A stretch of 64,000 nucleotides of DNA from Kastovskya adunca ATA6-11-RM4. GTDB taxonomy: Bacteria > Cyanobacteriota > Cyanobacteriia > Cyanobacteriales > Coleofasciculaceae. Numbering within the stretch: position 1 is the stretch's first letter; each line of letters starts with the position of its first letter. The notes beneath the pieces were generated by a model. That model saw only the letters and a program-made list of their open reading frames with translations. It was not told the origin of the DNA and searched no databases. The stretch covers positions 1 to 64,000 of the forward strand of contig JAHHHJ010000003.1 of assembly GCA_019359445.1 (NCBI GenBank), read 5' to 3'. Shown here piece after piece: positions 10,747 through 26,417 of the stretch. The translations under genes and the position numbers were made by a program.

Positions 10747-11664
10747 ATGAAATCCCTGATACAGAAGCTGGGGTGTGCTTACCAACTATGGACAGTTATC
10801 CTAACTGGATGTGTTGTCTCTATAGCACTGCCAATTGCCGCCGACCCAATTACCAATACCGCTTCAGCAACCTTTGGCGAGGTTACACCGACAACTGTCA
10901 CCTCCAACGAAACCTCTCTCACCGCCACTCAAGCGACGCTAGAACTCCTCAAAACCGCTGACCGTGCAGCAGCAGAACCGGGTGATACGGTCGTTTATCG
11001 TCTGGCTTTAAGAAACACTGGTACTATTGCCGCTAGTAATATTAGCCTCACCGATACACTGCCTTTAGGTCTGCGGATAGTCCCTGACTCTGTACAAGGT
11101 TCCTTAACTACAGGAACGACTACAGCCCCAATCAACTTACCACCGATAACGGCATCCAACCGGACAGTTACGTTTAATTATCCGAGTTTGGCACCCAATC
11201 AGACGTTGAACGTGGTTTATGCCGCTGTTGTGACACCCGATGCGGTGCGGGGTGATGGCAGAAATACCGCAGTTGAACCTAGAAGTAACATGGCTAGTTA
11301 CCGGCTGCGGATTGGCGAAGGAATCTTGTCTGATTGCGGCACCCTAGTAGGGCGAGTGTTTGTGGATAAAAATTTTGACGGCGAACAGCAACCGGGAGAG
11401 CCTGGGGTACCCAATGCGGTCATTTTCATGGATGACGGCAACCGCATCACCACGGATGCGAATGGGTTATTTTCTTTAGCGAATGTCATTGCTGGCAATC
11501 GCACAGGTACGCTGGATCTCAGCAGTTTGCCAGGGTACGCACTGGCACCGAATCTCTACTTTATTGAAGGCAACAGTCAGTCTCGTTTGGTACGTCTAGC
11601 ACCGGGAGGTATGGCACGGATGAACTTTGCTGTGACACCTGCCTATGGGGAGGAACAGCAATGA
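10747..11664 (+). CDS. Secreted DUF11 plus SdrD_B-like surface protein
   Basis: A signal peptide covers about residues 1-33 (hydrophobic VILTGCVVSIALPIAADP). A DUF11 domain follows at about 65-175 (LELLKTADRAAAEPGDTVVY), and then one SdrD_B/Cna-B-like domain at about 205-290 with the acidic DKNFDGEQQPGEPGV loop. Both are all-beta extracellular modules common in adhesins and surface filaments. Its TGA overlaps the ATG of the next gene (ATGA), so the two are translationally coupled. With the barrel protein downstream it probably forms one surface assembly. The molecular role is not known. Confidence 0.8.
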   Translation: MKSLIQKLGCAYQLWTVILTGCVVSIALPIAADPITNTASATFGEVTPTTVTSNETSLTATQATLELLKTADRAAAEPGDTVVYRLALRNTGTIAASNISLTDTLPLGLRIVPDSVQGSLTTGTTTAPINLPPITASNRTVTFNYPSLAPNQTLNVVYAAVVTPDAVRGDGRNTAVEPRSNMASYRLRIGEGILSDCGTLVGRVFVDKNFDGEQQPGEPGVPNAVIFMDDGNRITTDANGLFSLANVIAGNRTGTLDLSSLPGYALAPNLYFIEGNSQSRLVRLAPGGMARMNFAVTPAYGEEQQ

Positions 11665-14600
11665 AAGATTTAAATCAAAAGAGTGGTAATCAGCAGTTTT
11701 TGCGGCTAAATGCCAAGTTCTCGCCGCTTTCGATCGGTTTGTTCTCAACACTACTCGGAGTAATAGGGGTTCTCCCAGCTCCGGCTGAAGAGGTGAAGAA
11801 TGCACCCAGTGCAGACATTAGCGATCGCCTATACAGCCAAAACCAGATTAGCGAAAACGCGATCGCCCCACAAATAACCGAGGCGATTACTCAATCTGAC
11901 TCAACCGCCATTTCAGAGACAGTGCCAACAGCGGTAGAGGTGCCAGTCTCCGAAGATCCTGAGGCATCCAGCTTAGAGATAGATCAGGTAGAACCCCTCG
12001 CTGATGAGGCTCAAAGCGATCGCCCCATTGACATTCTTCCCACCCCTCAAACAGAGGAAGCCAATCCAGCACTCAGCCAAACCCTTGCCCAGCAAGGAAT
12101 TCGCATCCTCAGCCCCCAATCCGGCATTGCAGGAACGCGATCGACGAATCTAGTCGTCCAATACGGCGCAGATACTCAAATAGAAGTCAGCGTCAACCAG
12201 AACCCTATCGACCCGGAAACCCCTACCCAAATTGAGCGCGACGAGACGCAGAATCTGATTACTCAGGGTTGGTACAACATCCCTTTGGAAGCGGGTAAAA
12301 ATATCCTCACTGTCCAAGGCAACAACGGAACATCTGCAAGCGTTGAGTTAGACGTTGAAGACACTGCCATTCGCCTCAACGTTGCTCCTGTTGGCAACCC
12401 TCGCGTCGTAGCGGATGGTCGCTCCATCATCACCATTGCCGGACAACTTACTGACGAAAACGGTCAAGCGATCGCTGAAGATGTCGAAGTCACCTTAACC
12501 GCTAGTGCGGGTGAGTTTGTAGATGCCGACCAAGACGAAGACCAGCCAGGGTTTCAGACCCTTGCTAGACAAGGACAATTCAGCGCTCGATTGCAATCGA
12601 CCTTAGACGCCCAAAAGGTTCGCATCCGTGCGGCTGTAGAAGAGCAGGAAGTAGAAATTCAGGAATCCTTGGTTCCGGCTCCCTCAACACTTGAGGCATA
12701 CACCCAAGTTGAGTTCATCACCAATCTTCGCCCCTCTTTGGTAAGTGGTGTAGTTAACTTGCGGATTGGGCAGTCAGGAACAGACTTCTGGGGAAGCCGC
12801 CGGGAATTTCTCAACCCCGATCTCATTGACGATGGCACTGAGGTTGATTTAGAGGGCGCGGTTTTTGCGACTGGGCGAATAGGGGAATGGCTCTTTACAG
12901 GGGCTTATAACTCCGAACGTCCCTTAAATGAAACCTGTGATGGCATAACCCGGTTATTTCGGGGCCCGCAGTTTTGCGAACAACAGTATCCTGTCTATGG
13001 TGATAGCTCTAACGTTGATTATCTGACGCCTTCTAAAGATAGTGTCTACCTGCGCTTCGAGCGTACCTCCCCCGTTCCGGGTGCCGAACCGGATTATGTG
13101 ATGTGGGGAGACTACAACACCCAAGAATTAACTAGAGCATCGCAACTCTTTTCTGCAACCACTCGCGCCTTACATGGCTTTAAAGGCAACTACAACTTTG
13201 GAAATCTCCAACTTACTGCCTTCTACAGCCCTGACGTTCAGGGGTTCCAGCGAGACACGATTGTTCCCAACGGTACCAGTGGCTACTACTTCCTCTCACG
13301 ACGCCTGTTGGTGGAAGGAAGCGAGAACATTTTTATCGAAACTGAAGAACTCAATCGTCCGGGAACCGTTGTTGAGCGCAGACCTCTAAGACGCGGGCCC
13401 GACTACGAGATTGACTACGATCGCGGCACCTTGCTCTTCCGGCGTCCCATTCAGGCAACAAAATTTAACTTCTTTGGTACAGATGTCATCGAACCCAGAG
13501 AAAACGTGCCTGAGGGAGCCGTTGGTGCAACAACGCTAGTGCAACGGATTGTCGTTACCTATCAGCACGAAGGCATCGAGGGCGACGATACCGATATCTA
13601 CGGCGGACGGCTGCAATACAACTTCTCCCAGGAGTTCGGCTTAGAAAGCTGGATTGGGGCAACTTACCTGCAAGAAGACCAGGGTACACAAGACTTTGAG
13701 CTATATGGTGCCGATTTTCTAGTGCCTTTGGGGAGAAACGGGCAATTTATTGGAGAATACGCCCATTCCACCCATAATTCTCCATTTCTGGGCAATGTTT
13801 CCGGTTCCGCCTACCGCTTTGAACTTTACGGCAGTATTCTGGGGAATTTAAACGGTCGCGCTTACTACCGCTCAGTAGAAGAAGGCTTTGCTAATAATGC
13901 CACCTTCAGTTTTACGCCAGGACAAACCAGATACGGGGCAGCGATCGCCGCTCAAGTTACCTCCACTACCAGTCTACAAGTTGGGTACGACCACGAAGAA
14001 AACTTCGGCATCGCCCCCGCCGTGCGGACAGACTTCTTTGATCTATTTAACCCCGTCCCGGTGCCCCTTCCTGGAACACGGGTAGACAATGAACTCACCA
14101 CGATTCGGGCAGGAATTCAGCAACAAATTGGCAACGCCAGTTTGGGGGTTGATTACGTTAACCGCTCCCGCGAAGACCGAGTTAGCAACCTGTTTCAAGG
14201 CGACGCCAGCCAACTGGTTTCCCGCCTAGGCATCCCGATTACGCCCTCTTTAGCCTTTCGCGCCCAGAATGAACTGAACTTGGGGTCTAGCGATCCTCTC
14301 TATCCCGATCGCACTACCTTTGGCTTAGATTGGGCAGTTCATCCCGGCGTCACCCTACGTCTAGCTCACCAGTTCTTCGACGGCGGCTTATTTGATGACA
14401 ACTCCATTACCAGCCTCGACACCCTTGTCGAACACCGCTTTAGTGAAAACACTGTTGTTACAGGTCGGTACTCAGTAATTAGCGGCTTCGGGCGCGTCAC
14501 CGGACAGGGAGCTATTGGTCTCAATCACGGTTGGGTGATTGCTCCAGGACTGAGGCTGAACCTGGGCTATGAGCATATCTTCAACGATATCTTTACCCCC

Positions 14601-15494
14601 ACGGCAGCGGGAGAACGCTTTCCCCAACCCTATGCCGTTGGTCAAACTGCCGCCTCGTTAGGACTTTTTGGCGGTGATACCTACAGCGTCGGGCTGGAAT
14701 ACACCGAAAGCCCTGACTTTAAAGCCTCAGCTCGTTTCGAGCATCGCACAGGATCAGGGAACAACAACACCGTTATCAGTGCCGCTGCGGCGGGTAAACT
14801 TTCCCCCGCTCTGACTGCCCTTGCCAGTTACGAACAGGCGAACTTCTCTAACCAACTGATTGAGGGACTGGGAGATTCGGCAACCCTGAGACTCGGTTTA
14901 GCGTACCGCAATCCCTTTAGCGATCGCTGGAATGCTCTTTTCCGCTACGAATACCGCAAAAATCCCTCCACGATTCCCGAAACCTTGCTGATTGGCAGTG
15001 GTACGGGTTCTAGGGAACACCTCGTCGCTGGGGAAGCCATCTACTCTCCCAATTGGCGCTGGGAGTTTTACGGGAAAGGGGCATTTCGCACGAGTACCAC
15101 GTTCTTAGCTGATAACTTCAGCAACTCTTCAAGCGTATTTTTAACGCAACTGCGGGCAGCTTACCGTCTTAACTACCGCATGGATTTAGCCGTTGAAGGA
15201 CGCTGGATCGGTCAGCCTTCAGAAAACTTCAACGAATTTGGTGTTGCCCTGGAAACTGGGTATTACCTATCGCCCGATTTGCGACTCTATCTCGGGTACA
15301 GCTTTGGCAGTGTGGATGACCGGGACTTTACTGGGTATCGCTCAGAAGGCGGCCCTTATCTAGGGATAACCTTCAAAGTTAACGAACTCTTTGGTGGGTT
15401 TGGGCGACAGAGAGTTTCGCCACCTCAACAACAAGAGTCCCAAGTGCAACCTGTAGCGATTGAGGCACCTGCTGCCAATACTCCGAATGAGTAG
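11661..15494 (+). CDS. Large outer-membrane beta-barrel protein with Ig-like domains
   Basis: 1277 residues. An N-terminal signal or anchor (LSIGLFSTLLGVIGVLPAPA) is followed by a low-complexity Glu/Ser/Pro-rich linker to about residue 140. Beta-sandwich domains then include a Big_1/invasin-like unit at about 245-340 (VADGRSIITIAGQLTDENGQ). From about 370 to the end there are repeated amphipathic strands with alternating aromatics, the pattern of a large outer-membrane barrel; the last strands are followed by a short tail. A hairpin GPDYEIDYDRGTLLFRRPI lies near residue 580. It is translationally coupled to the DUF11 gene upstream. It could be a surface anchor or an export channel for its neighbours; neither is shown. 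Confidence 0.75.
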   Translation: MKDLNQKSGNQQFLRLNAKFSPLSIGLFSTLLGVIGVLPAPAEEVKNAPSADISDRLYSQNQISENAIAPQITEAITQSDSTAISETVPTAVEVPVSEDPEASSLEIDQVEPLADEAQSDRPIDILPTPQTEEANPALSQTLAQQGIRILSPQSGIAGTRSTNLVVQYGADTQIEVSVNQNPIDPETPTQIERDETQNLITQGWYNIPLEAGKNILTVQGNNGTSASVELDVEDTAIRLNVAPVGNPRVVADGRSIITIAGQLTDENGQAIAEDVEVTLTASAGEFVDADQDEDQPGFQTLARQGQFSARLQSTLDAQKVRIRAAVEEQEVEIQESLVPAPSTLEAYTQVEFITNLRPSLVSGVVNLRIGQSGTDFWGSRREFLNPDLIDDGTEVDLEGAVFATGRIGEWLFTGAYNSERPLNETCDGITRLFRGPQFCEQQYPVYGDSSNVDYLTPSKDSVYLRFERTSPVPGAEPDYVMWGDYNTQELTRASQLFSATTRALHGFKGNYNFGNLQLTAFYSPDVQGFQRDTIVPNGTSGYYFLSRRLLVEGSENIFIETEELNRPGTVVERRPLRRGPDYEIDYDRGTLLFRRPIQATKFNFFGTDVIEPRENVPEGAVGATTLVQRIVVTYQHEGIEGDDTDIYGGRLQYNFSQEFGLESWIGATYLQEDQGTQDFELYGADFLVPLGRNGQFIGEYAHSTHNSPFLGNVSGSAYRFELYGSILGNLNGRAYYRSVEEGFANNATFSFTPGQTRYGAAIAAQVTSTTSLQVGYDHEENFGIAPAVRTDFFDLFNPVPVPLPGTRVDNELTTIRAGIQQQIGNASLGVDYVNRSREDRVSNLFQGDASQLVSRLGIPITPSLAFRAQNELNLGSSDPLYPDRTTFGLDWAVHPGVTLRLAHQFFDGGLFDDNSITSLDTLVEHRFSENTVVTGRYSVISGFGRVTGQGAIGLNHGWVIAPGLRLNLGYEHIFNDIFTPTAAGERFPQPYAVGQTAASLGLFGGDTYSVGLEYTESPDFKASARFEHRTGSGNNNTVISAAAAGKLSPALTALASYEQANFSNQLIEGLGDSATLRLGLAYRNPFSDRWNALFRYEYRKNPSTIPETLLIGSGTGSREHLVAGEAIYSPNWRWEFYGKGAFRTSTTFLADNFSNSSSVFLTQLRAAYRLNYRMDLAVEGRWIGQPSENFNEFGVALETGYYLSPDLRLYLGYSFGSVDDRDFTGYRSEGGPYLGITFKVNELFGGFGRQRVSPPQQQESQVQPVAIEAPAANTPNE

Positions 15495-15510: not shown

Positions 15511-15822
15511 GTGAAGTGTGAAGGATGAAGGATGAAATGCGTTTTTGGTTACATGCCTCGTCCCTTATGGACGAAAAAGAATTAGATTTTTTCAAAACTC
15601 CTACCCCAAGGAAAAACAGGGCAGTTTCAGGTTCTAAAAATGCCTCATTTTCTCCGAGTTTTGACCTCTCCCCCAACCCCTCTCCTTGTAGAAGAGGAGA
15701 GTATGAAAACTCCTTCCTTCATAGGAAAGGGAGTAGAGAGGATGTTAGGTCTCTTCAAAATAAAACAGCCCTACCAAGAGAAAAAAATCCTTTCATCCTT
15801 CATACTTCATCCTTCATCCTTT
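15511..15822. repeat. Inverted pair of STRR heptamer repeats flanking a dispersed repeat
   Basis: The heptamer GAAGGAT repeats at 15511-15536, and its complement ATCCTTC repeats at 15792-15822, about 255 bp apart in inverted orientation. Between them, 15661-15715 carries a C-rich sequence of the dispersed type whose translation reads LSPNPSP. Similar heptamers recur at about 53746 and 58664. The segment lies within the 5' part of the OmpA-family reading frame. Confidence 0.6.
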
Positions 15823-17879
15823 TCCTTATCGTCTTGTTTCCTTCCCTCGCCAGCGCTCAGACAGCAACCCGTGTTGTTGTTAATGGCAACCAAGATGGAG
15901 CCATTCAACCGGATGATGCCTTGACATTGCGTGAAGCGATCGCTTTCGTCAATGGGCAACTCAACCTTGAACAACTTAGTGCTGCCGAACAAGGGCAAAT
16001 TCAACCGCTCAGTTCTGGATCTCCTCTGATTGCGTTTGATTTACCAGCCGGACAAACAATTATCCAACTCCAGGAAATATTGCCCCCCCTGGAAACACCA
16101 GGATTGGTAATCGACGGCACTACCCAACCGGGATACGACGCCACCCAATCCGCCACCGCAGAAATTGAAATTCCGATTCCGGTTGTCGAAATTACTCCTG
16201 CACCGGGTATTGACATTTTGCGCGGATTAACCATCACCGCCGACAATGTCACCGTCCGGGGGTTAAGCATTTATGGCTTCAGCGAGAAGCGGGGGGCAAC
16301 CCTAAGTACACCGCCTGCGGATATTTTCATTGCCCATCGCAATCCCCCTCCAGATATTAGTCAGCAGCAACCCCCGAATAATGCCTTTCCCTTCTCTGAG
16401 GAGGATGTTCCGCCGAAAAATGTGGTAATTGAGCAAAATTGGCTAGGAATCCCTCCGAACGAGCAGATGCCTCCCAAATTCTCAGCTTTTGGCGTATCCG
16501 TCTTTAATAGCCTCGGTACGACTATCCGCCGCAACCGCATTTCTCAGCACGATGGCAGTGGGATTATTACCTCCGTGCGGGCAAATAATTTGCTGGTAAC
16601 GGAAAACATTATTGTCGGTAATGGGATTGCCGGAATGCCGGATGGGATTCGCTTAGAAGGCGTCATTAATGATTCGCAAATTACGTCCAATTTGATTTGT
16701 GGCAACGATGGTAGTGGGGTGTATCTCTTTAAACCTGAAGGTTCTGTAGAGATTCGGGATAACCAAATTACCTTTAACGGCAGAAGATTTCGCCGCGCGG
16801 CGGTGTACCTGATGGGGGACGAGCATCAGGTGGTTGGCAACCAAATCCGCAACCAAACAGGGCCAGGAGTTGTGGTGACGGCTTATCCGAAGAGCGATCG
16901 CAACATAATTCAAGGCAATCGCTTTGCCGAACTCGAAGGGCTGAGTATTGACCTGATCACCGAACAACATGTGGAGCCGATCCATTACCAACGCGGCGAT
17001 GGTGCCAACCCTCAACGGAATTCTGCCTACGATCGCCAAAAAACAGGTAATTCGGCAATCAATGCGCCAGAATTTGGGACGAGGGAATTATTTGCCTTGG
17101 GTTCAGGCGTGCAGCTCTTTGGTAGGGCAGAGCCAGGTTCCCGCGTGGAAGTTTACCGCGTTACTGAAAGGACTCCTATTTCCAGAGGGCCATTAAGCGA
17201 GCCACTGACCGAGGTAGAAACGGATGCTGAGGGACGTTTTAGCGTAACGATTGATAACTTGCAACCGGGAGAACAAGTTAGTGCGATCGCGACTCACCCC
17301 CAGTTCGGCACCTCTGAACCTGCCCTCAATACCTTAGTACAGTTTCCTGATGGTAGCGTTCCCCCCGGCTCAGACGCACCCACACCACCTGTCACCCCGC
17401 AATGCACAACACGACCTGCACCCCCGCCACCACCACCGGAGGAACCACCACCACCACCCGAACCCCTAACGCTGCGGGTGCCGAGGAATGTTCACTTTGC
17501 CCTCGACCAATCCACCATCAGTGCTGAGAGTGCCGCCATTCTCGACCAAATTGCTGCTGTTTTGCGGGAATATCCCTTCCTGACGGTGGAACTTGTCGGT
17601 CACACTGACCCCCGTGCTAGTGCTGCCTACAACCAAGCATTAGGAGAGCGTCGGGCTTTAGCTACCCGTAATTACCTGCTGCGTCAGGGAATTGCTCCAG
17701 AACGGCTGACGATTCGCTCTCAAGGAGAAATGGAACGCCGCACCACCGGGGAAACCCGTCTAGATTTTGCCCGCGATCGCCGCGTTGAATTAATCTTCCA
17801 AGACACCAGAGGTCTGGACATCATCTTTGAAACCCAGGAAACCGACCTGCAACTGGAACCCCCTAGAGGCACAAGGTAG
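15525..17879 (+). CDS. OmpA-family protein with parallel beta-helix
   Basis: The first 90 or so codons read through repeat DNA. The probable signal peptide is FILHTSSFILFLIVLFPSL with ASAQ after it, ending near residue 112. An LTLREAI (CSLREA-like) motif follows near 137. A right-handed beta-helix (NosD-like, with repeated N-x-I and G-N-x-I turns) spans about 200-480, then a proline-rich linker (PPPPPPEEPPPPPEP). The C-terminal OmpA domain (about 650-765) has GHTDPRASAAYN and the arginine-rich RDRRVELIF, expected to bind peptidoglycan. In-frame ATGs at 15525, 15537 and 15567 are the only plausible starts. It may tether the cluster's surface structure to the cell wall. Confidence 0.82.
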   Translation: MKDEMRFWLHASSLMDEKELDFFKTPTPRKNRAVSGSKNASFSPSFDLSPNPSPCRRGEYENSFLHRKGSREDVRSLQNKTALPREKNPFILHTSSFILFLIVLFPSLASAQTATRVVVNGNQDGAIQPDDALTLREAIAFVNGQLNLEQLSAAEQGQIQPLSSGSPLIAFDLPAGQTIIQLQEILPPLETPGLVIDGTTQPGYDATQSATAEIEIPIPVVEITPAPGIDILRGLTITADNVTVRGLSIYGFSEKRGATLSTPPADIFIAHRNPPPDISQQQPPNNAFPFSEEDVPPKNVVIEQNWLGIPPNEQMPPKFSAFGVSVFNSLGTTIRRNRISQHDGSGIITSVRANNLLVTENIIVGNGIAGMPDGIRLEGVINDSQITSNLICGNDGSGVYLFKPEGSVEIRDNQITFNGRRFRRAAVYLMGDEHQVVGNQIRNQTGPGVVVTAYPKSDRNIIQGNRFAELEGLSIDLITEQHVEPIHYQRGDGANPQRNSAYDRQKTGNSAINAPEFGTRELFALGSGVQLFGRAEPGSRVEVYRVTERTPISRGPLSEPLTEVETDAEGRFSVTIDNLQPGEQVSAIATHPQFGTSEPALNTLVQFPDGSVPPGSDAPTPPVTPQCTTRPAPPPPPPEEPPPPPEPLTLRVPRNVHFALDQSTISAESAAILDQIAAVLREYPFLTVELVGHTDPRASAAYNQALGERRALATRNYLLRQGIAPERLTIRSQGEMERRTTGETRLDFARDRRVELIFQDTRGLDIIFETQETDLQLEPPRGTR

Positions 17880-17924: not shown

Positions 17925-19676
17925 ATGTTCTCAATCATTAGCCAGCAAGTGGAGCGATCGCGTTCTTTCGATACCATTCCTTCTCATACCAAATCCGCAT
18001 TGATAGCCCCCTTGGTATTTTTCTCCCCTGCTCCCGTTCGGCTGAGCGTTCGACTGCCCTTCGGCAGGTGGAACACTGAGCTTGTCGAAGTGCTCAGGAA
18101 CCGCGCTCACGCCGAAGTCTCACGTCGAAGCCTGCCCCCCTGCCCCCCTGCTTCTTCAGGAATAAAGGGGTTTTCTGAATGGATTTGGTATCACCCCTAC
18201 CTCACCGGATTCGCTAGCCTTTTGCTCTTGGGGCTGTTTAGTTCCCCCGTAGCTGCTCAAAATGTTTTAGTCGAAGAGCCGTTTCAGACTAACACCACGT
18301 CCCGATGGCAGGTGGGCGTGGCTAACCCCGCCAACGTTGAGGCTCTGCCTTGCTTAACTGCCAGATCCCCTGATGACCAGTCACCTACCGACATTGGCGC
18401 TTGTCCTAATGGTCCCTTAGACCCGATTGGGTCGGGCGTTCTGAGACTCACTAACCGTGAAAAAGATCAAGCAGGCTTTGTTTTTTTCCAGGAAGCCATT
18501 CCTTCAAGTAAGGGGCTTGTGGTGCTTTTTGACTTCTTCTCCTATGGCGGAACTGGAGCCGATGGCTTGAGTTTTTTCCTCATTGATGGTAATGCATCAC
18601 CCAATGAAGCAGGTGCCTTTGGGGGTTCCCTAGGCTATGCGTTTTGCTTGGAAAGTTCTGGCAATTGCGAGCGAGACATTCCTGGACTCGTTGGTGGTTA
18701 TGTAGGCATTGGATTTGATGAGTTTGGTAATTTTTCTAATCCCAACGATAACGGCAAAATTGGTGGTCCAGGACAAATCCCTGATTCAGTAGCCCTTAGA
18801 GGCGCGGGTAGTGGATTGACAGGATACCAATACTTAACTGGCACCGATCCGAATGAGCTGCCTACATTGGACTTCCCCAATGTAACGACTCGTCCAGAAA
18901 CCACACCCAGACGAGTGAGGCTTACGCTCACTCCTAATAACCGCATCTCTCTGGAGATAAATTTCTTTGATGGTAGAGGTTTTGTACCTGTACTTGAAGA
19001 ATACGACTTGAACACAGCACCGGGTCAACCGCCTTTTCCGTCGAGCTTCAAATTTGGTTTTGCCGCTTCCACCGGAGGTCAAACTAACATTCACGAAATC
19101 CGCGCCTTTCGGATCACAACGATTGAGCCAAACCTGCGATTGGTGAAGCGCATTACATCAGTAACTAGAGGCGGCACTCCCCTGAGTGGTGTCAACTTCA
19201 ACGAGGGTCAAGATAACCCCAACGACCCGGAGGACACCGCAGCAGGCTGGTCTCAACTGCCTCCAAGTGAGCGATCGCCCTCAGGAATTCCCAGAGGGAT
19301 TGTTAACCTTGACAATACTGCTGTCAACAGTGGTGATGAAGTGGAGTACACAGTTTATTTCCTCTCCGATGGTGGCGCAGACGCAACGGCTGTCAATGTC
19401 TGCGACCTGATTCCTGCTGGAACTACATTTATTCGCGATAGTTTTGCACCCCAGCAGGGTATTGTTTTAAATCGAGCGGGAACCACCACCACCCTTACGA
19501 ATGCATTGGATAACGATAGTGGACGTTTTGTCCCCCCTCTGAACCCCCTACCCAGCAGTAGTGCTTGTTCAGACCCCAGCAATCCGAATGGGGCAGTTTT
19601 AGTCAATCTTGGTGAAGTTTCTAGCGACCCTGGGGATAACTATGGGTTTATTCGCTTCCGAGTTCGAGTCAACTAA
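17925..19676 (+). CDS. Lectin-like surface protein with shared C-terminal module (1)
   Basis: The hydrophobic signal segment (FASLLLLGLFSSPVAAQ) sits unusually far in, at about residues 97-113, because a repeat element separates it from the ATG. A beta-sandwich of the L-type-lectin type follows (about 115-395), with FFSYGGTGADGLSFFLIDG and GYVGIGFDEFGNF, typical of carbohydrate-binding lectin folds. The last roughly 180 residues begin LRLVKRITSVTRGG and end IRFRVRVN. This module is repeated in the next two proteins. The family call for the lectin part is moderately sure. Its ligand and the role of the terminal module are unknown. Confidence 0.75.
   Translation: MFSIISQQVERSRSFDTIPSHTKSALIAPLVFFSPAPVRLSVRLPFGRWNTELVEVLRNRAHAEVSRRSLPPCPPASSGIKGFSEWIWYHPYLTGFASLLLLGLFSSPVAAQNVLVEEPFQTNTTSRWQVGVANPANVEALPCLTARSPDDQSPTDIGACPNGPLDPIGSGVLRLTNREKDQAGFVFFQEAIPSSKGLVVLFDFFSYGGTGADGLSFFLIDGNASPNEAGAFGGSLGYAFCLESSGNCERDIPGLVGGYVGIGFDEFGNFSNPNDNGKIGGPGQIPDSVALRGAGSGLTGYQYLTGTDPNELPTLDFPNVTTRPETTPRRVRLTLTPNNRISLEINFFDGRGFVPVLEEYDLNTAPGQPPFPSSFKFGFAASTGGQTNIHEIRAFRITTIEPNLRLVKRITSVTRGGTPLSGVNFNEGQDNPNDPEDTAAGWSQLPPSERSPSGIPRGIVNLDNTAVNSGDEVEYTVYFLSDGGADATAVNVCDLIPAGTTFIRDSFAPQQGIVLNRAGTTTTLTNALDNDSGRFVPPLNPLPSSSACSDPSNPNGAVLVNLGEVSSDPGDNYGFIRFRVRVN
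17986..18191. mobile_element. MITE-like insertion inside the signal-peptide coding region
   Basis: Perfect 11-bp terminal inverted repeats ATACCAAATCC (17986-17996) and GGATTTGGTAT (18181-18191) bound about 206 bp. The interior is dispersed repeat DNA (TGAGCTTGTCGAAGTGCTC and a CCCTGCC run). The paralogous gene at 20065 lacks this segment. TA at each boundary could be a Tc1/mariner-type target duplication, but that is uncertain. Confidence 0.6.
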
Positions 19677-20064
19677 AGCTAATTGTCATGAGTTACCAAT
19701 AAACAAAAAGTCTCGATTGTTTAATTAAGTAAAAAACGTCAAATTTCTAAAGATAGTCGCGATTTGGGGTGCATCGGAGTCAATAACCACAGTAAAGCTG
19801 AGGAGTGCGATCGCTTATGACTTAAGAGTCATTGCTGAGAAATTGACGGGAATCTATGTTGGATACCGATTGTCTGGAGTCTTAGTTAACTAGTCATTAC
19901 TAAACTTTGAACAATCAAGCGGATTTGTGTTTGCTCAAGCAAGCGATCGCCTTTTTGAATACATTTTCAAAAACGTTGAGCAATCATCTTTGAAAAATAA
20001 AAACTGACAAAGAACGCTTGCTGCCAACTCGACTGTATACCCTTATGAGTTCTTCTTTTCTCCC
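19677..20064. other. Intergenic region between the two lectin-like genes
   Basis: 388 bp with HIP1 sites and AT-rich stretches. No ORF or clear terminator was recognised. It probably carries a promoter for the 20065 gene. Confidence 0.4.
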
Positions 20065-22071
20065 ATGCCCCCAATCATCAGCCAGCAAATTGCCAAAGTA
20101 CTAAGTAAAGCTTTTCTTCCCATCGTCTTTGCTCAGAAAAGAAGCTGGCTAAGTGGTGGCATGTTTCTGCTAATAGCAACGAGTAGTTCCCATGTCGCCG
20201 CCCAAACCCTTCTAGTTGAAGAGGAATTTAAAGAGCCAACCAGCTTTGGATGGTCAGTTGGTGCGGTGAATGACGCCGCGATCGCCTGCTTAACGGCAGG
20301 TAATGCGACTACGCCGCCATCTTCAATTCCTGCCTGTCCGACTACACTCGATCAACCAGGCTCGGGAGCTTTGAGAATAACGACCGCCGAGAGAAACCAA
20401 GCTGCCTTTGCTTTCTATGACTTTCCCATTCCTGCTGGGTCTGGGCTAGAAATTAACTTCGACTATTTTTCCTACGGCGGTACTCCAATAGAGCCAGGTG
20501 GTAGTGAGGCAGACGGAATCACTTTTTTCCTATTCGATGGCTCTACCAACGCACCTGTACCTGGGGGATTTGGTGGCTCCCTTGGCTACGCTCAATTAAT
20601 ACCTCTTAGGGATGCACCTTTGCCTGGGGGTCTTCCTATTCCACCCACTTTACCTGGTCTAACTAATGCTTTTGTTGGTGTGGGATTCGATGAATTTGGT
20701 AACTTTGCTAGAGATGTTGAAGAGAGAGTAAGCCGGGGTCAGGGCTGTACTAATTCCTCTCCTAATGCTGAAAGAGTCCTCGATTCTGTAACGGTTAGGG
20801 GATCGGGGAGTGGGCTAACAGGATACTGTTATCTCGCCAACTCAGGGGAATTATCCGAAGGTATCGACGTTCCCAACGCACCTAATCGCGAGATTGCACG
20901 ACGCCGAGTCAGGATCGTGCTGACTCAGAATTTCGACCTCTCCGTTGCAATTGCCTTTGGTGATGGTCAATTCCAAACTGTCATTCCTGGAATTAGCTTG
21001 CTTAGTTTCCCTGATCAAGCTAATCCTCCTAGCAACTTCAAGTTTGGTTTTGCTAGCTCAACTGGGGGCGCAACAAATATTCATGAAGTCCGCAACCTCA
21101 GAATTCAAACTATTGCTACCGCACCGCAACCTGACCTGGAAATTACTAAAAGTCATGCTGGCAATTTCATTGCTGGGGGGAAAGGCGAATACACCTTAAC
21201 GGCGACGAATATCGGTAATGGTCCGACCTATGGACCTCTGATTATCAGAGATACTTTGCCTCCTGGCTTCAGTCTTTCCTCCTTTAGGGGTACGGGTTGG
21301 GATTGTTCTGAAAACCCACCAGGAACTGTTACTTGTGTCTATGAAGGCGACCCCCGTTCAGCAGACCCGGCATCAGACCCGCCCCTCGCTCCTGGTGAAA
21401 GCCAATCAGTCGTCATTGAGGTGAATGTAACGGATATTCCTGGCACTTACACCAACCTAGGAGAGATCACCAATCCGGCGGATCTTAACCCAGAGAACAA
21501 CACGACAACAGACGAAACGATAGTTGTTGCTGACGGTCTTGAACCTGAAGCACTGCGTCTAGTCAAACGAATTACAGCGGCGACAAGAGCCGGTGTTCCC
21601 TTAAGTGGCATCGGCTTTGACCGCTTTGTTGACAATCCTAACGACCCCAATGACAATGCTCCGGGTTTTTCTCAACTTTTGCCTGTAGGCGTGACGCAGA
21701 TCGATCCAGCGATTGAATTACAAAGCCAAGATGAAGTGGAATACACCATCTACTACCTGGCGGATGGTGGCGAACCACTCCAAGCAGTGAATGTCTGTGA
21801 CTTGGTTCCTACCGGAACTACCTTCGTCAATAATAGTTTTGGCTCAGAGCAAGGTATTTTATTAAATCGTGCTGGACTTGTTAGCCCTCAAACCAATGCC
21901 TTAGATACGGACGCCGGAAGCTTCTTCTCGCCTCTGACTCCCCTCCCTAATAGAAATGGTTGCCAAGACGCCAGTAACCCTAATGGTGCGGTGTTGATGA
22001 ATCTCGGTGAAGTCTCAAATAAGCTAGGGAGTAACTTTGGGTTTATGCGTTTTCGAGTGCTAATTGATTAA
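20065..22071 (+). CDS. Lectin-like plus DUF11 surface protein with shared C-terminal module (2)
   Basis: The signal peptide covers about residues 1-46 (GGMFLLIATSSSHVAAQ). An L-type-lectin-like sandwich runs from about 48 to 350, with FDYFSYGGT and AFVGVGFDEFGNFA as in the preceding gene. A DUF11 domain follows at about 355-490 (PDLEITKSHAGNFIAGGKGEY) and then the shared terminal module from ALRLVKRITAATRAG to FRVLID. It is a paralogue of the 17925 gene with an extra DUF11 domain. Secretion to the cell surface is expected. The ligand and assembly partners are inferred only from the cluster. Confidence 0.77.
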   Translation: MPPIISQQIAKVLSKAFLPIVFAQKRSWLSGGMFLLIATSSSHVAAQTLLVEEEFKEPTSFGWSVGAVNDAAIACLTAGNATTPPSSIPACPTTLDQPGSGALRITTAERNQAAFAFYDFPIPAGSGLEINFDYFSYGGTPIEPGGSEADGITFFLFDGSTNAPVPGGFGGSLGYAQLIPLRDAPLPGGLPIPPTLPGLTNAFVGVGFDEFGNFARDVEERVSRGQGCTNSSPNAERVLDSVTVRGSGSGLTGYCYLANSGELSEGIDVPNAPNREIARRRVRIVLTQNFDLSVAIAFGDGQFQTVIPGISLLSFPDQANPPSNFKFGFASSTGGATNIHEVRNLRIQTIATAPQPDLEITKSHAGNFIAGGKGEYTLTATNIGNGPTYGPLIIRDTLPPGFSLSSFRGTGWDCSENPPGTVTCVYEGDPRSADPASDPPLAPGESQSVVIEVNVTDIPGTYTNLGEITNPADLNPENNTTTDETIVVADGLEPEALRLVKRITAATRAGVPLSGIGFDRFVDNPNDPNDNAPGFSQLLPVGVTQIDPAIELQSQDEVEYTIYYLADGGEPLQAVNVCDLVPTGTTFVNNSFGSEQGILLNRAGLVSPQTNALDTDAGSFFSPLTPLPNRNGCQDASNPNGAVLMNLGEVSNKLGSNFGFMRFRVLID

Positions 22072-22316
22072 CTTTCTCAGATTTTTAGTGCGATCGCGTT
22101 TAGCAATGTACCTTTCGCTACCCGCTTCGGCGGTTTTGTCCTGCGTCTCAAGAGATAGTGCAGCAAGACTTAACACGCGATCGCCTAAACCTGTGGAAAA
22201 CACGGATTGCTTCTGCCACTAAGTTTGCTTGAGTAGAAATTGACTCTGAATCGGCATTGAGCAGCGATCTACCACCCGCTGAATTCGTGAGTGATTTTAT
22301 ACAGAACCAGGATGCC

Positions 22317-25300
22317 ATGTCGTCTCGTAAGTCCGGTATTTTTCCCATCCCCAGTGTTTTGATTAAGCCAGGTATCAGCCCAGTAGTTTACCAATCGTTG
22401 ACTGGCATCCCCCACCGATTCTGGTTCTGGCTACCTAGCAGCGTTGCACTCCTAGCTGCCTTAATCGGATTTCCCCGCACTACCCTGGCTCAAACCGTTT
22501 TCCCATCGGTGAACGGGCTAAACTTCCAAACTAGCGGACCATCTCGCGCTCCTACAGTTGGTGATTGGTATACGACAGCAACTAGTGCCAGCACTGACAG
22601 GATTCATCGCATTAGTGTCAGCATTACCCCAGCCATGCTCGCAGCGGGAGGTGGTAGCGTCACAATTACTGTTCAGGATGCAGAGAGTAACGGAGCCTTG
22701 GATGAAATTGACAATCAAGCAATTGGCAATCGAAGTTGTCCCCCAGCGAGTAGCTGCGATCCCACTCGCTTTGAATTACGTGCAGCCGATGGCACAACAA
22801 TTCTCCCAAGTCAAACTGTGGGGACAGCAACTGGGACAGGTGCTCCTGATGGGACAACTGTTGTCTTTACAGTCACGACACCCGGCACTTACCAAGTTAC
22901 CAGCGAAACTGGAGCTTTGCCAATTTTTGCCAACAATGCTAATAACCTTAACAACGATGACAACACCTTTAGAGTTGTTGTTTCTCAAAGTGGCGGACTA
23001 GTTGGTAACTTCCAAGGTACGGTGCAGCAAAATACTGGCGAAAACCTAACTATTCCGTTCTACTTTCTAGTTGGTCCGACGGCTAATGGAACAAGTAATT
23101 TATTCTTACGAAATTTTGATCTGGATAATGGAGGAACCGTAACTTATATCCCACCGACAGGCGGGGTTGTACAAGGGACAACATCAGATAATGGAGTTTG
23201 GAATGGTATTAATGGAAGCTTGGACACAGGCGGCGATACCGTAATTGCCAACAATACTAAATCAGCGACGGGTGGAGATGCTGGAATCTGGGGCTTAACG
23301 ATCGCTAACTTTACAAACAATAACCAGACTCTTTTTGAGGCAAATGGGGATGGCGCACGCCTACCCTTGTACGACCGACGCCCCACTACTGCTGGAAACT
23401 TCACAATTACCGCTCCAGACGATAACACTCGCTCAACGACAATTGGTACGCCTGTCGATCATCCCTTTACCATCACCAATAACTTTTTTACCAACGATAT
23501 TTTTAATCTCACGACTTCAGGTACAAATCCCAATTACACCGTGCAATTGCTCGATAGTGCAGGTAATCCTTTACCCGATACTGATGGCGATGGAGTGCCA
23601 GATACAGGGATTTTGACCCCAAGACAAACGGGAAACTTTATTCTTCGCGTTACCCCCAATCTAGGAGCAACAACGGCTGACACGACTCAGATTAATGCCG
23701 TTTCCTTCATGGATAACAAGGTCGATCCTGCGAGTAATACCATCCAGTCCATTCCGAAAACGACGACAATTACCACAGCGGTGACAGGTTCAATTGGCGA
23801 TCGCGTTTTCAACGATTCCAACGGGAATGGCACGCAAGACCCAGGAGAACCCGGTTTAGCCAATGTCACTATTACGTTGAGGGATAGCAACGGTAATGTA
23901 GTTGCCACGACAACCACCGATGCTAATGGCAACTACAACCTTACAAACCTGCCAGCGGGTAGCTACACCGTAACCGTCACCGATCCGGCTGGCTTTACTC
24001 TCACCACGAATAACCAATCCCTAACAATCAACCTCGCTTCCGGTCAAACCGTAAGCAGTGCTGATTTTGGCTATCGCCAGACGAATAGCTCAATTGGCGA
24101 CTTAGTATTTAACGACTTAAACGGCAACGGTACGCAAGACCCAGGAGAACCCGGTTTAGCCAACATCACCGTTACCCTGAGGGATAGCAACGGCACGGCG
24201 ATCGCCACAACTACCACCGATGCTAATGGCAACTACAGATTTACAGGTCTACCCGCAGGTAGCTACACCGTCAGTGTTACTGACCCAGCGGGCTTTGCAA
24301 TCACGACGGGAAACGACCCTTTCCTTGTGAATTTGGCAGCCGGAGCAGCCGTTAACAATGTTGACTTTGGCTTCCGTCAGAGCAATGCCTCTATTGGCAA
24401 TCTCGTCTTTAACGACATTGACGGCGATGGGGTACAAGACCCAGGAGAACCGGGCATCAGTGGCATCACGATTAATCTCAGGGATGCGAATGGGAACGTT
24501 ATTGCTACAACCACAACTGACGCCAACGGGAACTATACATTTAATAATCTCCCAGCAGGTACCTACACTGTTGCAGTTCCCAATCCTCCGACTGGCTTCA
24601 ATGCCACTCCCACGACTGCCCCTGGTTCAATTACCCTAGCAGCGGGTCAGAACATTGATAGTGCCGACTTTGGCTTCCGTCAGCCTAACGGTTCGATTGG
24701 CGATCGCGTCTTTAATGACACCAATGGCAATGGCATTCAAGACCCAGACGAACCCGGTATTAGCGGCGTTACTGTTATTTTGAGTACTAACGGAGCGGAG
24801 AGCGCCAGAACCACCACTGACGCCAACGGCAACTACAACTTCACCAATCTCCTACCAGGAACTTACACCGTTGAAGTTCCCGACCCTCCGGCTGGCTTCA
24901 CTGCCACAACTCCTGCCCCTAGCCCGATTACCCTAGAACCCAATCAAAGCGTTGACGATGCTGACTTTGGCTTCCGTCAACCTGACGGCTCAATCGGCAC
25001 CATTGTTTTTCGGGACTTGAACGGTAACGGCACTCAAGATGCTGGCGAGACAGGATTCCCAGGTGTCACGGTAACCCTGCGAGATACGAATGGGAATGTT
25101 ATTGCCACCACTACAACTGACGCCAATGGTAACTACTTATTCAGAGAGCTACCATTTGGTACCTATATTGTCGATATTACCGACCCTACTGGCTTTACCC
25201 TCACAACCAACAACGATCGACTGACGGTCACGCTCAATGACAATAATCCCAACTTCTCCTTAGCAAACTTTGGCTTCCGGGCAGCAGGTACAATTGGGGA

Positions 25301-26417
25301 CTTGGTTTTTAACGACGCCAATGGGAATGGCACGCAGGATGCTGGAGAAAGCGGCATTGGCGGCGTCACCATCACCTTGAAAGATGCTAACGGCACGGCG
25401 ATCGCCACAACCACCACTGACGCCAACGGCAACTATAGCTTCACCAATCTGCCCCCTGGTAACTATATCGTTGAAGCGACGACCCCGGCTGGCTTTACCC
25501 TGACCACGGGAAATTCTTCCTTTCCTGTTACCCTGAATCCCGATCAGTCTGTCAGTAACATTGACTTCGGCTTCCGCCAACCCGGAGTCAGCCTTGGAGA
25601 CTTAGTTTTCAACGATATTAACGGCAACGGAACTCTAGATCCGGGCGAAACGGGACGTGGCGGCATCACCGTAACCCTAAAGGACGCTAACGGCAACGTT
25701 ATTGCCACCACTACCACCGACGCTAACGGGAACTATCGCTTCGGTGGTCTGGCAGAAGGGACGTATTTTGTCGAGGTAAGTCCCCCTCCTGGCTTTACCC
25801 TGACAACGGGTACCGCCTCTATCCAAGTGACAGCTACAGCCAATCAAACGGTCAACAATCTTGATTTTGGTCTCCAACCAGGTACAACCGCTGCTGGCAA
25901 CCTCCGCTTAGTCAAGCGCATTACCAATGTCACTCGCAATAGCGTTCCTATCAGTGGGGTGGATTTCACTCGCTTTGTGGATGATTCCAATACCACTAAT
26001 GACAATGCTTCAGGCTTTTCTCAACTGTCACCAGTGGGAGCGATCCGATTACTAGAGGACAATGCTTTGCAAAGTGGCGATGAGGTGGAGTACACGATCT
26101 ACTTCCTCTCCGATGGCGGTACTCCAGCTAACAATGTAAGATTCTGCGACCCAATCCCTACCGGGACAACCTTTCTGCCCAATAGTTTTGGTGGAGGTAG
26201 AGGGATTTTGTTACGTCAAGATGGGGTGGATGCACCGCAATCTAATGCCTCGGATACCGACAAAGGGAGATTTTTCTCGCCCCTTGCACCTGTAACGACT
26301 CCTTCTTGCCCAGATCCGAACAACCCCAATGGATCGATCGTCTTGCAGTTGGGCAATATTACCAACACTGCCCCTAATAATGTAGGATTTGTACGCTTCC
26401 GAGTCAAAATTGACTAA
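22317..26417 (+). CDS. Seven-repeat SdrD_B surface protein with shared C-terminal module (3)
   Basis: I start at ATG 22317; an in-frame TTG at 22257 would add 20 residues. The signal peptide ends near LIGFPRTTLAQ. An N-terminal beta domain of about 430 residues follows. Then come seven SdrD_B-like units of about 95 residues, each opening SIGDxVFNDxNGNGxQDPGE and containing TTTDANGNY. The Asp/Asn-rich loops resemble calcium-binding loops of SdrD B domains, which form stiff stalks. The final roughly 170 residues (LRLVKRITNVTRNS to FRVKID) are the module shared with the two previous genes. It is probably a long surface stalk or fibre; the role is inferred. Confidence 0.8.
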   Translation: MSSRKSGIFPIPSVLIKPGISPVVYQSLTGIPHRFWFWLPSSVALLAALIGFPRTTLAQTVFPSVNGLNFQTSGPSRAPTVGDWYTTATSASTDRIHRISVSITPAMLAAGGGSVTITVQDAESNGALDEIDNQAIGNRSCPPASSCDPTRFELRAADGTTILPSQTVGTATGTGAPDGTTVVFTVTTPGTYQVTSETGALPIFANNANNLNNDDNTFRVVVSQSGGLVGNFQGTVQQNTGENLTIPFYFLVGPTANGTSNLFLRNFDLDNGGTVTYIPPTGGVVQGTTSDNGVWNGINGSLDTGGDTVIANNTKSATGGDAGIWGLTIANFTNNNQTLFEANGDGARLPLYDRRPTTAGNFTITAPDDNTRSTTIGTPVDHPFTITNNFFTNDIFNLTTSGTNPNYTVQLLDSAGNPLPDTDGDGVPDTGILTPRQTGNFILRVTPNLGATTADTTQINAVSFMDNKVDPASNTIQSIPKTTTITTAVTGSIGDRVFNDSNGNGTQDPGEPGLANVTITLRDSNGNVVATTTTDANGNYNLTNLPAGSYTVTVTDPAGFTLTTNNQSLTINLASGQTVSSADFGYRQTNSSIGDLVFNDLNGNGTQDPGEPGLANITVTLRDSNGTAIATTTTDANGNYRFTGLPAGSYTVSVTDPAGFAITTGNDPFLVNLAAGAAVNNVDFGFRQSNASIGNLVFNDIDGDGVQDPGEPGISGITINLRDANGNVIATTTTDANGNYTFNNLPAGTYTVAVPNPPTGFNATPTTAPGSITLAAGQNIDSADFGFRQPNGSIGDRVFNDTNGNGIQDPDEPGISGVTVILSTNGAESARTTTDANGNYNFTNLLPGTYTVEVPDPPAGFTATTPAPSPITLEPNQSVDDADFGFRQPDGSIGTIVFRDLNGNGTQDAGETGFPGVTVTLRDTNGNVIATTTTDANGNYLFRELPFGTYIVDITDPTGFTLTTNNDRLTVTLNDNNPNFSLANFGFRAAGTIGDLVFNDANGNGTQDAGESGIGGVTITLKDANGTAIATTTTDANGNYSFTNLPPGNYIVEATTPAGFTLTTGNSSFPVTLNPDQSVSNIDFGFRQPGVSLGDLVFNDINGNGTLDPGETGRGGITVTLKDANGNVIATTTTDANGNYRFGGLAEGTYFVEVSPPPGFTLTTGTASIQVTATANQTVNNLDFGLQPGTTAAGNLRLVKRITNVTRNSVPISGVDFTRFVDDSNTTNDNASGFSQLSPVGAIRLLEDNALQSGDEVEYTIYFLSDGGTPANNVRFCDPIPTGTTFLPNSFGGGRGILLRQDGVDAPQSNASDTDKGRFFSPLAPVTTPSCPDPNNPNGSIVLQLGNITNTAPNNVGFVRFRVKID
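23790..25880 (+). repeat. Seven tandem repeats of about 295 bp encoding SdrD_B units
   Basis: Units begin near 23790, 24085, 24385, 24690, 24990, 25290 and 25590. Short stretches such as CAAGACCCAGGAGAACC and ACCACCGATGCTAATGGCAA recur between units. Conservation is strongest in the acidic loop and in TTTDANGNY. Unit-number variation between strains is likely. Confidence 0.8.

Follow-up and report, generated by a model that had tools for sequence, protein, structure and literature searches.

In the window, a stretch of 64,000 nucleotides from the cyanobacterium Kastovskya adunca ATA6-11-RM4, three tandem genes on the + strand (17925-26417) end in one conserved domain, the module, and lie downstream of a gene for a giant outer-membrane barrel. 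The module and the barrel are very probably dedicated functional partners. This partnership is strongly supported by genomics, namely by the homology of the modules, their strict C-terminal position, the variety of cargoes that carry them, co-occurrence with the barrel, operon order and the matching of barrel and module types. From the partnership we infer, as on balance the likely role of the barrel, export or surface display of the tagged proteins, with the module serving as the recognition signal. The features concerned are given below, and include the 1277-residue barrel and the OmpA protein that the earlier note had correctly placed upstream of the tagged genes.

10747..11664, + strand: U protein, 305 aa, secreted, with DUF11 and SdrD_B (ORF, domain scan)
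11661..15494, + strand: giant outer-membrane barrel, 1277 aa (ORF, domain scan, structure model, homologues)
15525..17879, + strand: beta-helix (NosD-like) and OmpA peptidoglycan-binding protein, 784-aa ORF, optional
17925..19676, + strand: tagged protein A, 583 aa, with the C-terminal module behind a lectin-like N-terminal part (ORF, domain scan, alignment)
19134..19673, + strand: C-terminal module of protein A, 180 aa (pairwise alignment, invariant columns, genome search)
20065..22071, + strand: tagged protein B, 668 aa, with a lectin-like region paralogous to that of A, then an ordinary DUF11 domain and the module
21553..22068, + strand: C-terminal module of protein B, 172 aa (pairwise alignment, invariant columns, genome search)
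22257..26417, + strand: tagged protein C, 1386 aa, with seven SdrD_B repeats between a unique N-terminal region and the module
25902..26414, + strand: C-terminal module of protein C, 171 aa (alignment, genome search, predicted structure)

The last 180, 172 and 171 residues of the 583-, 668- and 1386-aa proteins align end to end, with identities of 55.9% (583 vs 668), 48.9% (583 vs 1386) and 53.6% (668 vs 1386). The E-values of these alignments, from 4e-45 to 6e-61, are far beyond chance and bear out the earlier claim of homologous C-termini of roughly 170 residues on the three genes (171-180 aa, 49-56% identity). The genome contains exactly three copies of the module, all in the window genes. 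Two cysteines of the module are invariant, positions K5, R6, T8, C82, D83, C136, R165, F166 and R167 are invariant or near-invariant, and the end motif, G-[FY]-[VI]-R-F-R-x-[RK]-[VI]-[KDN]-COOH, is conserved to the last residues. Among 123 module homologues, TIGR01451 matches 121 and PF01345 matches 88 (E <= 0.01); judged by sequence profiles, the module is a divergent DUF11 (Ig-like) domain inside the DUF11 superfamily rather than a domain lacking relatives. The predicted structure (pLDDT 94) is an Ig/pilin-like sandwich, complete with no strand missing, and its nearest known folds are Gram-positive shaft pilins. In the module of protein C, the last strand is predicted to run to the chain end. 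A PDB sequence search with the module profile returned one marginal DUF11-like chain, 9ifr.

Counting complete ORFs with a strong module match, the module is found at the C-terminus in 156 of 156 distinct complete proteins, with 0-2 residues beyond it and no internal copies, confirming that it is always C-terminal. As a chain-ending domain is C-terminal by nature, the informative part of this result is the absence of internal copies only. The ordinary DUF11 domains of the tagged proteins are internal, unlike the module, and weak module matches in G120, G280 and G051 are also ordinary DUF11 domains, which were left out of the counts. The module is combined with lectin-like, SdrD_B, beta-helix, GEVED, Big_9/cadherin-like, DUF6923 and DUF7933 cargoes, in proteins reaching ~2060 aa. 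This wider diversity comes from other genomes, not from the window, where the N-terminal parts had been described as three unlike types; the lectin-like parts of A and B are homologous (43% over 345 aa), leaving two cargo types. Hydrophobic N-termini and family membership suggest that the tagged proteins are exported by Sec. A crude signal-peptide score gave no separation between tagged proteins (145/153) and background (355/465), and was not used as evidence.

In the barrel, N-terminal Ig-like domains precede a beta-strand region of ~900 residues that contains a small-strand insert; about 40 strands are predicted in a model of moderate quality (pLDDT 75, pTM 0.65). At the top of its fold matches, all with low TM-scores and large rmsd, is the FimD usher (Z 15.7, rmsd 15.2 over 358 residues); the SprA translocon of type IX is also among them (Z 11.2, rmsd 16.7). 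A PDB sequence search with the barrel profile gave nothing credible, the best match being a beta-galactosidase Ig domain (E 0.003). Barrel homologues occur in 144 of the 388 genomes of the order; the named barrel loci are cyanobacterial in 80 of 80 cases, and distant relatives are found in Proteobacteria and Deinococcota. The proteobacterial homologues carry the annotation 'TonB-dependent receptor', and lectin-like cargo suggests glycan binding, in keeping with nutrient uptake by a TonB-dependent-like receptor whose substrate-capturing partners would be the lectin-module proteins. This function is extremely improbable, given that a Pfam scan (E <= 1) detected neither Plug nor TonB_dep_Rec in the barrel and that most cargoes are structural or adhesive repeats.

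The gene for U lies directly upstream of 128 of 130 testable barrels. In the window, the stop of the U gene reaches 4 bp into the barrel gene, and an overlap is present in 107 of the loci, 82 of these by 4 bp. An OmpA-family gene is located near 69 of 111 barrels. The constant partner of the barrel is the DUF11/SdrD_B protein U, while the OmpA anchor is optional. The surface-assembly system of barrel, anchor and tag proposed in the earlier note is retained in its tie between tag and barrel, but not with the anchor as a fixed component. The OmpA and Beta_helix domains of the 784-aa ORF score at E 1.4e-16 and 4.4e-12, respectively, and its first ~110 codons may be left untranslated. Promoter and terminator scans of the operon gave results at chance level. 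A 266-aa gene often found upstream in Leptolyngbya-type loci is presumably tryptophan synthase alpha, a mere neighbour.

For 103 of 111 barrels, a module gene lies downstream on the same strand within 9 kb, and A and B are paralogous along most of their length. Both observations would fit an adhesin operon inherited as a unit, with the shared C-terminus a leftover of duplication that has no recognition function, and single-operon inheritance would produce co-occurrence too. Co-inheritance alone is nevertheless very unlikely, as the module is common to unrelated cargoes, its end motif is kept to the last residues, and modules are located far from the barrel in the near-complete genomes G001, G012 and G013. 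Barrel loss and unlinked module genes provide further evidence against it.

Among 388 genomes of the order, 137 encode both module and barrel, 8 the module only, 7 the barrel only and 236 neither (phi 0.92; Fisher p 6e-85, a value that ignores shared ancestry). In 386 genomes of the phylum, the corresponding counts are about 42, 1, 1 and 342. The earlier note had named the module at other protein positions, or in genomes lacking the barrel, as grounds for refutation; the idea survived both checks, as the module is C-terminal throughout and the barrel is nearly always present where the module is (137 vs 8 in the order, about 42 vs 1 in the phylum). Several of the eight module-only genomes of the order are incomplete, while G441 is listed as 99% complete. 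In G014, which has no detectable barrel, the sole module gene encodes only the last 129 aa of a protein that measures 1015-1598 aa at the same locus in relatives of the genus. Here, the module gene decays together with barrel loss, leaving a remnant that argues against mere co-inheritance.

Barrel and module each fall into two types, I and II, with the window operon belonging to type I. The types of barrel and module agree in 68 of 71 linked genes (p 2e-16). They also agree in 15 of 15 unlinked genes from genomes with a single barrel type (p 1.6e-4), a set covering about 8 genera in which some 'unlinked' genes are on short contigs; this agreement again argues against inheritance of the operon as a unit. 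Both module types are present in each of the 14 genomes that have the two barrel types. Barrel and module distances are correlated overall (Mantel r 0.78) and within the two types (0.68 / 0.54), values that likewise disregard shared ancestry. The three mismatches, L191, L215 and L216, are deep-branching modules. For L215/L216, whose cargo is much like that of type II, the mismatch probably stems from placing the root at the midpoint.

Type II operons also carry a single-domain DUF11 protein of ~187 aa, which aligns to the module (hhalign probability 96%, 92 columns). This protein could be the shaft subunit of a pilus or filament, for which the module would be a pilin-like block. The tagged proteins would then be tip adhesins, built in two parts like FimH, and the barrel would act as usher. 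The nearest folds of the module, the FimD match of the barrel and the DUF11 proteins that build 'grappling hook' filaments in a chloroflexote (PMC13319060) are consistent with such an assembly. However, the hhalign match may reflect common DUF11 ancestry alone, type I operons, including that of the window, show no such small subunit beside the barrel, the module is predicted to have all of its strands, and neither a PF00577 usher was found in the genome nor a chaperone gene seen in the operon. Pilus assembly is thus improbable. Another protein of type II operons, X (DUF7925, ~850 aa), ends in FTFQRKVN and was considered as a second tag, but was rejected at an hhalign probability of 4%.

In the preferred reading, we infer physical binding, translocation, topology and the roles of U and OmpA as follows. 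Tagged proteins would cross the inner membrane by Sec, and the module would fold in the periplasm into its Ig-like sandwich, the free chain end being its terminal strand, of the GFVRFRVKVK-COOH type. The module would then bind either the barrel itself or U, the partner coupled to it, after which the barrel would hand the tagged protein to the cell surface or hold it docked there. OmpA, if present, would tether the assembly to peptidoglycan. The analysis brought up no motor or energy source that would drive translocation. Alternatively, the barrel may serve only as a surface anchor or receptor, into which the module plugs to hold lectin-like and adhesive proteins exported in another way. Some type B proteins of type IX systems are believed to be retained by PorP/SprF barrels in this manner. 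The matching of barrel and tag types fits docking as well as export, an OmpA anchor is often part of the operon, and no motor or sortase partner is visible there. Docking would, however, require a separate exporter for proteins of up to ~2060 aa, and the N-terminal, probably periplasmic Ig domains and small-strand insert of the modelled barrel could gate its channel, making docking alone rather doubtful.

Little is known of how the large adhesins and lectin-like proteins of filamentous cyanobacteria get through the outer membrane. About 37% of the genomes sampled in the order carry the tag-and-barrel pair, and no description of a module/barrel system was found in the open-access literature searched. 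If export through the barrel is correct, the module predicts the cargo set of a genome, and a use is found for a DUF11 subgroup, as well as for barrels that in other phyla are labelled 'hypothetical' or 'TonB-dependent receptor'. A pair in which two types of tag correspond to two types of barrel makes the question of outer-membrane export directly testable.

We tentatively propose that these genes represent a separate cyanobacterial pathway of outer-membrane secretion or surface display, with a DUF11-derived tag, a giant barrel, a coupled U and two matched versions, unrelated in sequence to the systems compared here. The likeness to type IX substrate marking that had been pointed out holds for the logic of the tag, but not for sequence. 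As in type IX, diverse cargoes, here probably exported by Sec, share one conserved C-terminal Ig-like domain, the barrel is giant (SprA/Sov), the distribution of the tag follows the translocon, and tag types are paired with partner barrels (type B with PorP/SprF in type IX). A further likeness is that basic residues near the extreme C-terminus matter in type IX (PMC10202324). By contrast, the present system is cyanobacterial, its module measures ~171 aa and has two conserved, paired cysteines, and its barrel is coupled to a DUF11/SdrD_B protein. Type IX is restricted to Bacteroidota (PMC10202324). Membership in type IX is rejected on CTD families and taxonomy, with none of 123 modules matching the sorting domains TIGR04183/PF18962 or TIGR04131/PF13585. 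Protein C does match TIGR04183/PF18962, but inside its SdrD_B repeats (the best match covers residues 535-579) and away from the C-terminus. The barrel has no SprA_N match (E <= 1) and no PDB sequence match to SprA; the genome yielded neither SprA nor a match to NF033707 (PorU-type sortase), although no control genome matched SprA or passed the NF033707 cut-off either.

Chaperone-usher systems (FimD/PapC) resemble the present one in that FimD heads the structural matches of the barrel and usher adhesins end in an Ig-like pilin domain, and differ in that the module is a predicted complete sandwich and no chaperone gene is seen in the operon. The usher family PF00577 has no match in the whole genome, while an E. 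coli control scored above the cut-off. In type 11 secretion (Slam/DUF560), a variable N-terminal effector is joined to a conserved C-terminal domain and exported by a neighbouring barrel (PMC12282271), an arrangement paralleled here by the variable N-terminal parts, the conserved C-terminal domain and the nearby barrel gene. However, T11SS cargo ends in an eight-stranded beta-barrel, unlike the predicted Ig-like sandwich of the module, and no DUF560 match was found in the barrel. The grappling-hook protein GhlA, from a chloroflexote and compared with GhpA, is likewise built of DUF11 and located at the cell surface, but is a single giant filament protein, with no shared C-terminal tag reported in the parts of the source consulted (PMC13319060). 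As far as searched, no description of the function of DUF11-rich proteobacterial barrel operons was found. One of these, on the Acinetobacter haemolyticus plasmid CP085288, has the same gene order, with small NEW3/DUF11 genes, a DUF11/SdrD_B-containing barrel (23% identity over 82% of the query), an OmpA gene and a DUF11 cargo. It differs in that its barrel carries U as an N-terminal fusion, and the C-terminal domain of its cargo matches the cyanobacterial module only weakly (whole-protein E 1e-3).

In the Kastovskya adunca window, the genes concerned lie in one run:

10747-11664 (+), U, a 305-aa DUF11/SdrD_B protein
11661-15494 (+), the barrel, a 1277-aa giant outer-membrane protein
15525-17879 (+), a 784-aa beta-helix/OmpA ORF
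17925-19676 (+), tagged protein A, 583 aa, lectin-like
20065-22071 (+), tagged protein B, 668 aa, lectin-like
22257-26417 (+), tagged protein C, 1386 aa, with SdrD_B repeats

The three tagged ORFs do share a C-terminal end, as the earlier note had reported, in the form of modules of 180, 172 and 171 aa with pairwise identities of 49-56% (E down to 6e-61), and a search of the genome (5.09 Mb, nearly complete, 37 contigs) found no fourth copy. The same note had described the N-terminal parts as differing; this holds only between two cargo types, since the lectin-like proteins A and B are N-terminally homologous (43%). Near its beginning, at 18050-18140, the ORF of protein A (583 aa) crosses a REP-like palindromic sequence (...CGACTGCCCTTCGGCAGGTGGAACACTGAGCTTGTCGAAG...), and its first ~80 codons are thus probably not the true N-terminus. 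The 784-aa ORF at 15525 likewise has an odd 110-codon lead ahead of a signal-like segment.

The module profile was compared with all the ORFs in about 190 DNA stretches. Matches of at least 50 bits counted as strong, and in complete ORFs these always left 0-2 residues between the module and the chain end, upholding the view that it is always C-terminal; in the last ORF set, 0 or 1 residue followed it in 73 of 73. Among complete ORFs a single strong match was fragmentary (locus L222), and it too ends RFRVRIP; weaker matches inside tagged proteins are ordinary DUF11 repeats. The 156 distinct complete module-ended proteins range from 127 to 2060 aa. Loose single linkage sorts their N-terminal parts into groups of 99, 24 and 20 members plus some small ones, with cargo domains including SdrD_B arrays, DUF7933 arrays, beta-helix, GEVED, Big_9/cadherin arrays and DUF6923.

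Judged by profile matches among 123 homologues (TIGR01451 in 121, PF01345 in 88), the module is a DUF11 superfamily member. Outside the DUF11 core, its specific features are an N-terminal K-R-x-T strand, a cysteine pair (C82 and C136) invariant in the 123 sequences, and a terminal strand whose R-F-R stands, counting back from the chain end, at -7 to -5 in 111-116 of them. The structure is confidently predicted as a beta sandwich (mean pLDDT 93.7), and the nearest folds to this model are middle domains of the Gram-positive shaft pilins SSA1632, PilA, SpaD and RrgB, at Z values (about 7; 2.2-3.6 A) that reflect a common Ig-like arrangement and say nothing on function.

The module almost never occurs without the barrel, as had been anticipated. 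Among 386 genomes sampled across the phylum, a barrel and a strong module match were both present in 42, the module alone in one (G349, at a contig end) and a distant barrel alone in one (G054). A partly overlapping order sample of 388 genomes gave both in 137, module only in 8, barrel only in 7 and neither in 236 (phi 0.92). Several of its module-only genomes are incomplete (G492, 66%; G539, 81%; G572, 82%; G544, 88%), and G441 (99% complete), where the module matched five times and the barrel not at all, is possibly a true exception or a case of a fragmented barrel. In G014, no barrel was found by protein or profile search and only the last 129 residues are left of a tagged protein that, at the same locus, has 1015 or 1598 aa in genus relatives, a natural loss. 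Named barrel relatives include Symplocastrum, Coleofasciculus, Nostoc, Calothrix and Leptolyngbya, which puts the window in Cyanobacteriota. Distant barrels (28-31% identity) occur in another class of the phylum, in G054 (L224) and in G066 (L223), where a DUF11-ended protein with an RFRVQIN end lies on the same contig; the system may be older than the photosynthetic cyanobacteria.

At the midpoint, the barrel tree (76 sequences) and the module tree (94) both divide in two, and this split defines types I and II. Types agree in 68 of 71 cases of linked genes, all 15 modules encoded outside the stretch that carries the barrel agree with its type in single-barrel-type genomes (about eight genera, some genes on short contigs), and barrel and module distances correlate (r 0.78 overall, 0.68 and 0.54 within types), all these values being inflated by shared ancestry. 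The three mismatches are likely due to root placement, and 14 genomes hold both barrel types and both module types.

A recognition tag would be expected to leave such traces: strict C-terminal placement, a variety of cargoes, loss together with the barrel, and matching of types. The type IX CTD shows the same comparative pattern: it is distributed in step with the core components of its system, and secretion requires this Ig-like domain (PMC10202324). On these grounds we propose that the barrel would recognise the folded C-terminal module and export or dock tagged proteins. The principle of a tag plus a large barrel is already known. For each of type IX, chaperone-usher, type 11 and TonB receptor, membership disagrees with at least one feature examined, no description of the operon was found in the open-access library searched, and there is a fair chance that it represents a separate pathway.

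The AlphaFold model of the barrel (pLDDT 75, pTM 0.65) places Ig-like domains at residues ~135-355 (intimin/beta-galactosidase Ig domains, Z 12-14) ahead of about 900 residues of strands. The 42 predicted strands of at least 7 residues need not form one closed barrel, and a cluster of short strands with the well-conserved motif DYEIDYDRG may be a plug. The best VIA match is FimD (Z 15.7, rmsd 15 over 358 residues), with SprA also listed (Z 11.2); in Foldseek, Deinococcus SlpA and SprA rank high with low TM-scores, and comparison with PDB sequences found no relation to SprA or FimD.

Among 140 distinct barrels, U lies directly upstream in 128 of the 130 with room to look, overlapping the barrel gene in 107 and by 4 bp, as in the window (11661-11664), in 82. 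Downstream, of the 111 with enough sequence to look, 103 have a same-strand module gene within 9 kb and 69 an OmpA-family gene. In type II operons (L286:4473-9519 and about 58 other loci) two further genes precede U and may supply a subunit or chaperone of the system: one encodes an ~850-aa DUF7925 protein, the other a 187-aa protein that is little beyond one module-like DUF11 domain (hhalign probability 96%).

Plasmids of Proteobacteria, Deinococcus and Thermus also carry distant barrel homologues, several of them adjoining DUF11 genes. The Acinetobacter haemolyticus plasmid CP085288 (L316:6666-19031) resembles the window operon in its order of small DUF11/NEW3 genes, barrel, OmpA and DUF11 cargo, but differs in that U is fused to the barrel, giving a 2008-aa barrel with DUF11/SdrD_B. 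Its cargo is a 979-aa DUF11 protein. On alphaproteobacterial plasmids (L318:1-12409, L319:1-12742), a very large DUF11 gene, encoding over 6000 aa in Sulfitobacter, lies immediately upstream of a barrel relative whose annotation is 'TonB-dependent receptor' or hypothetical.
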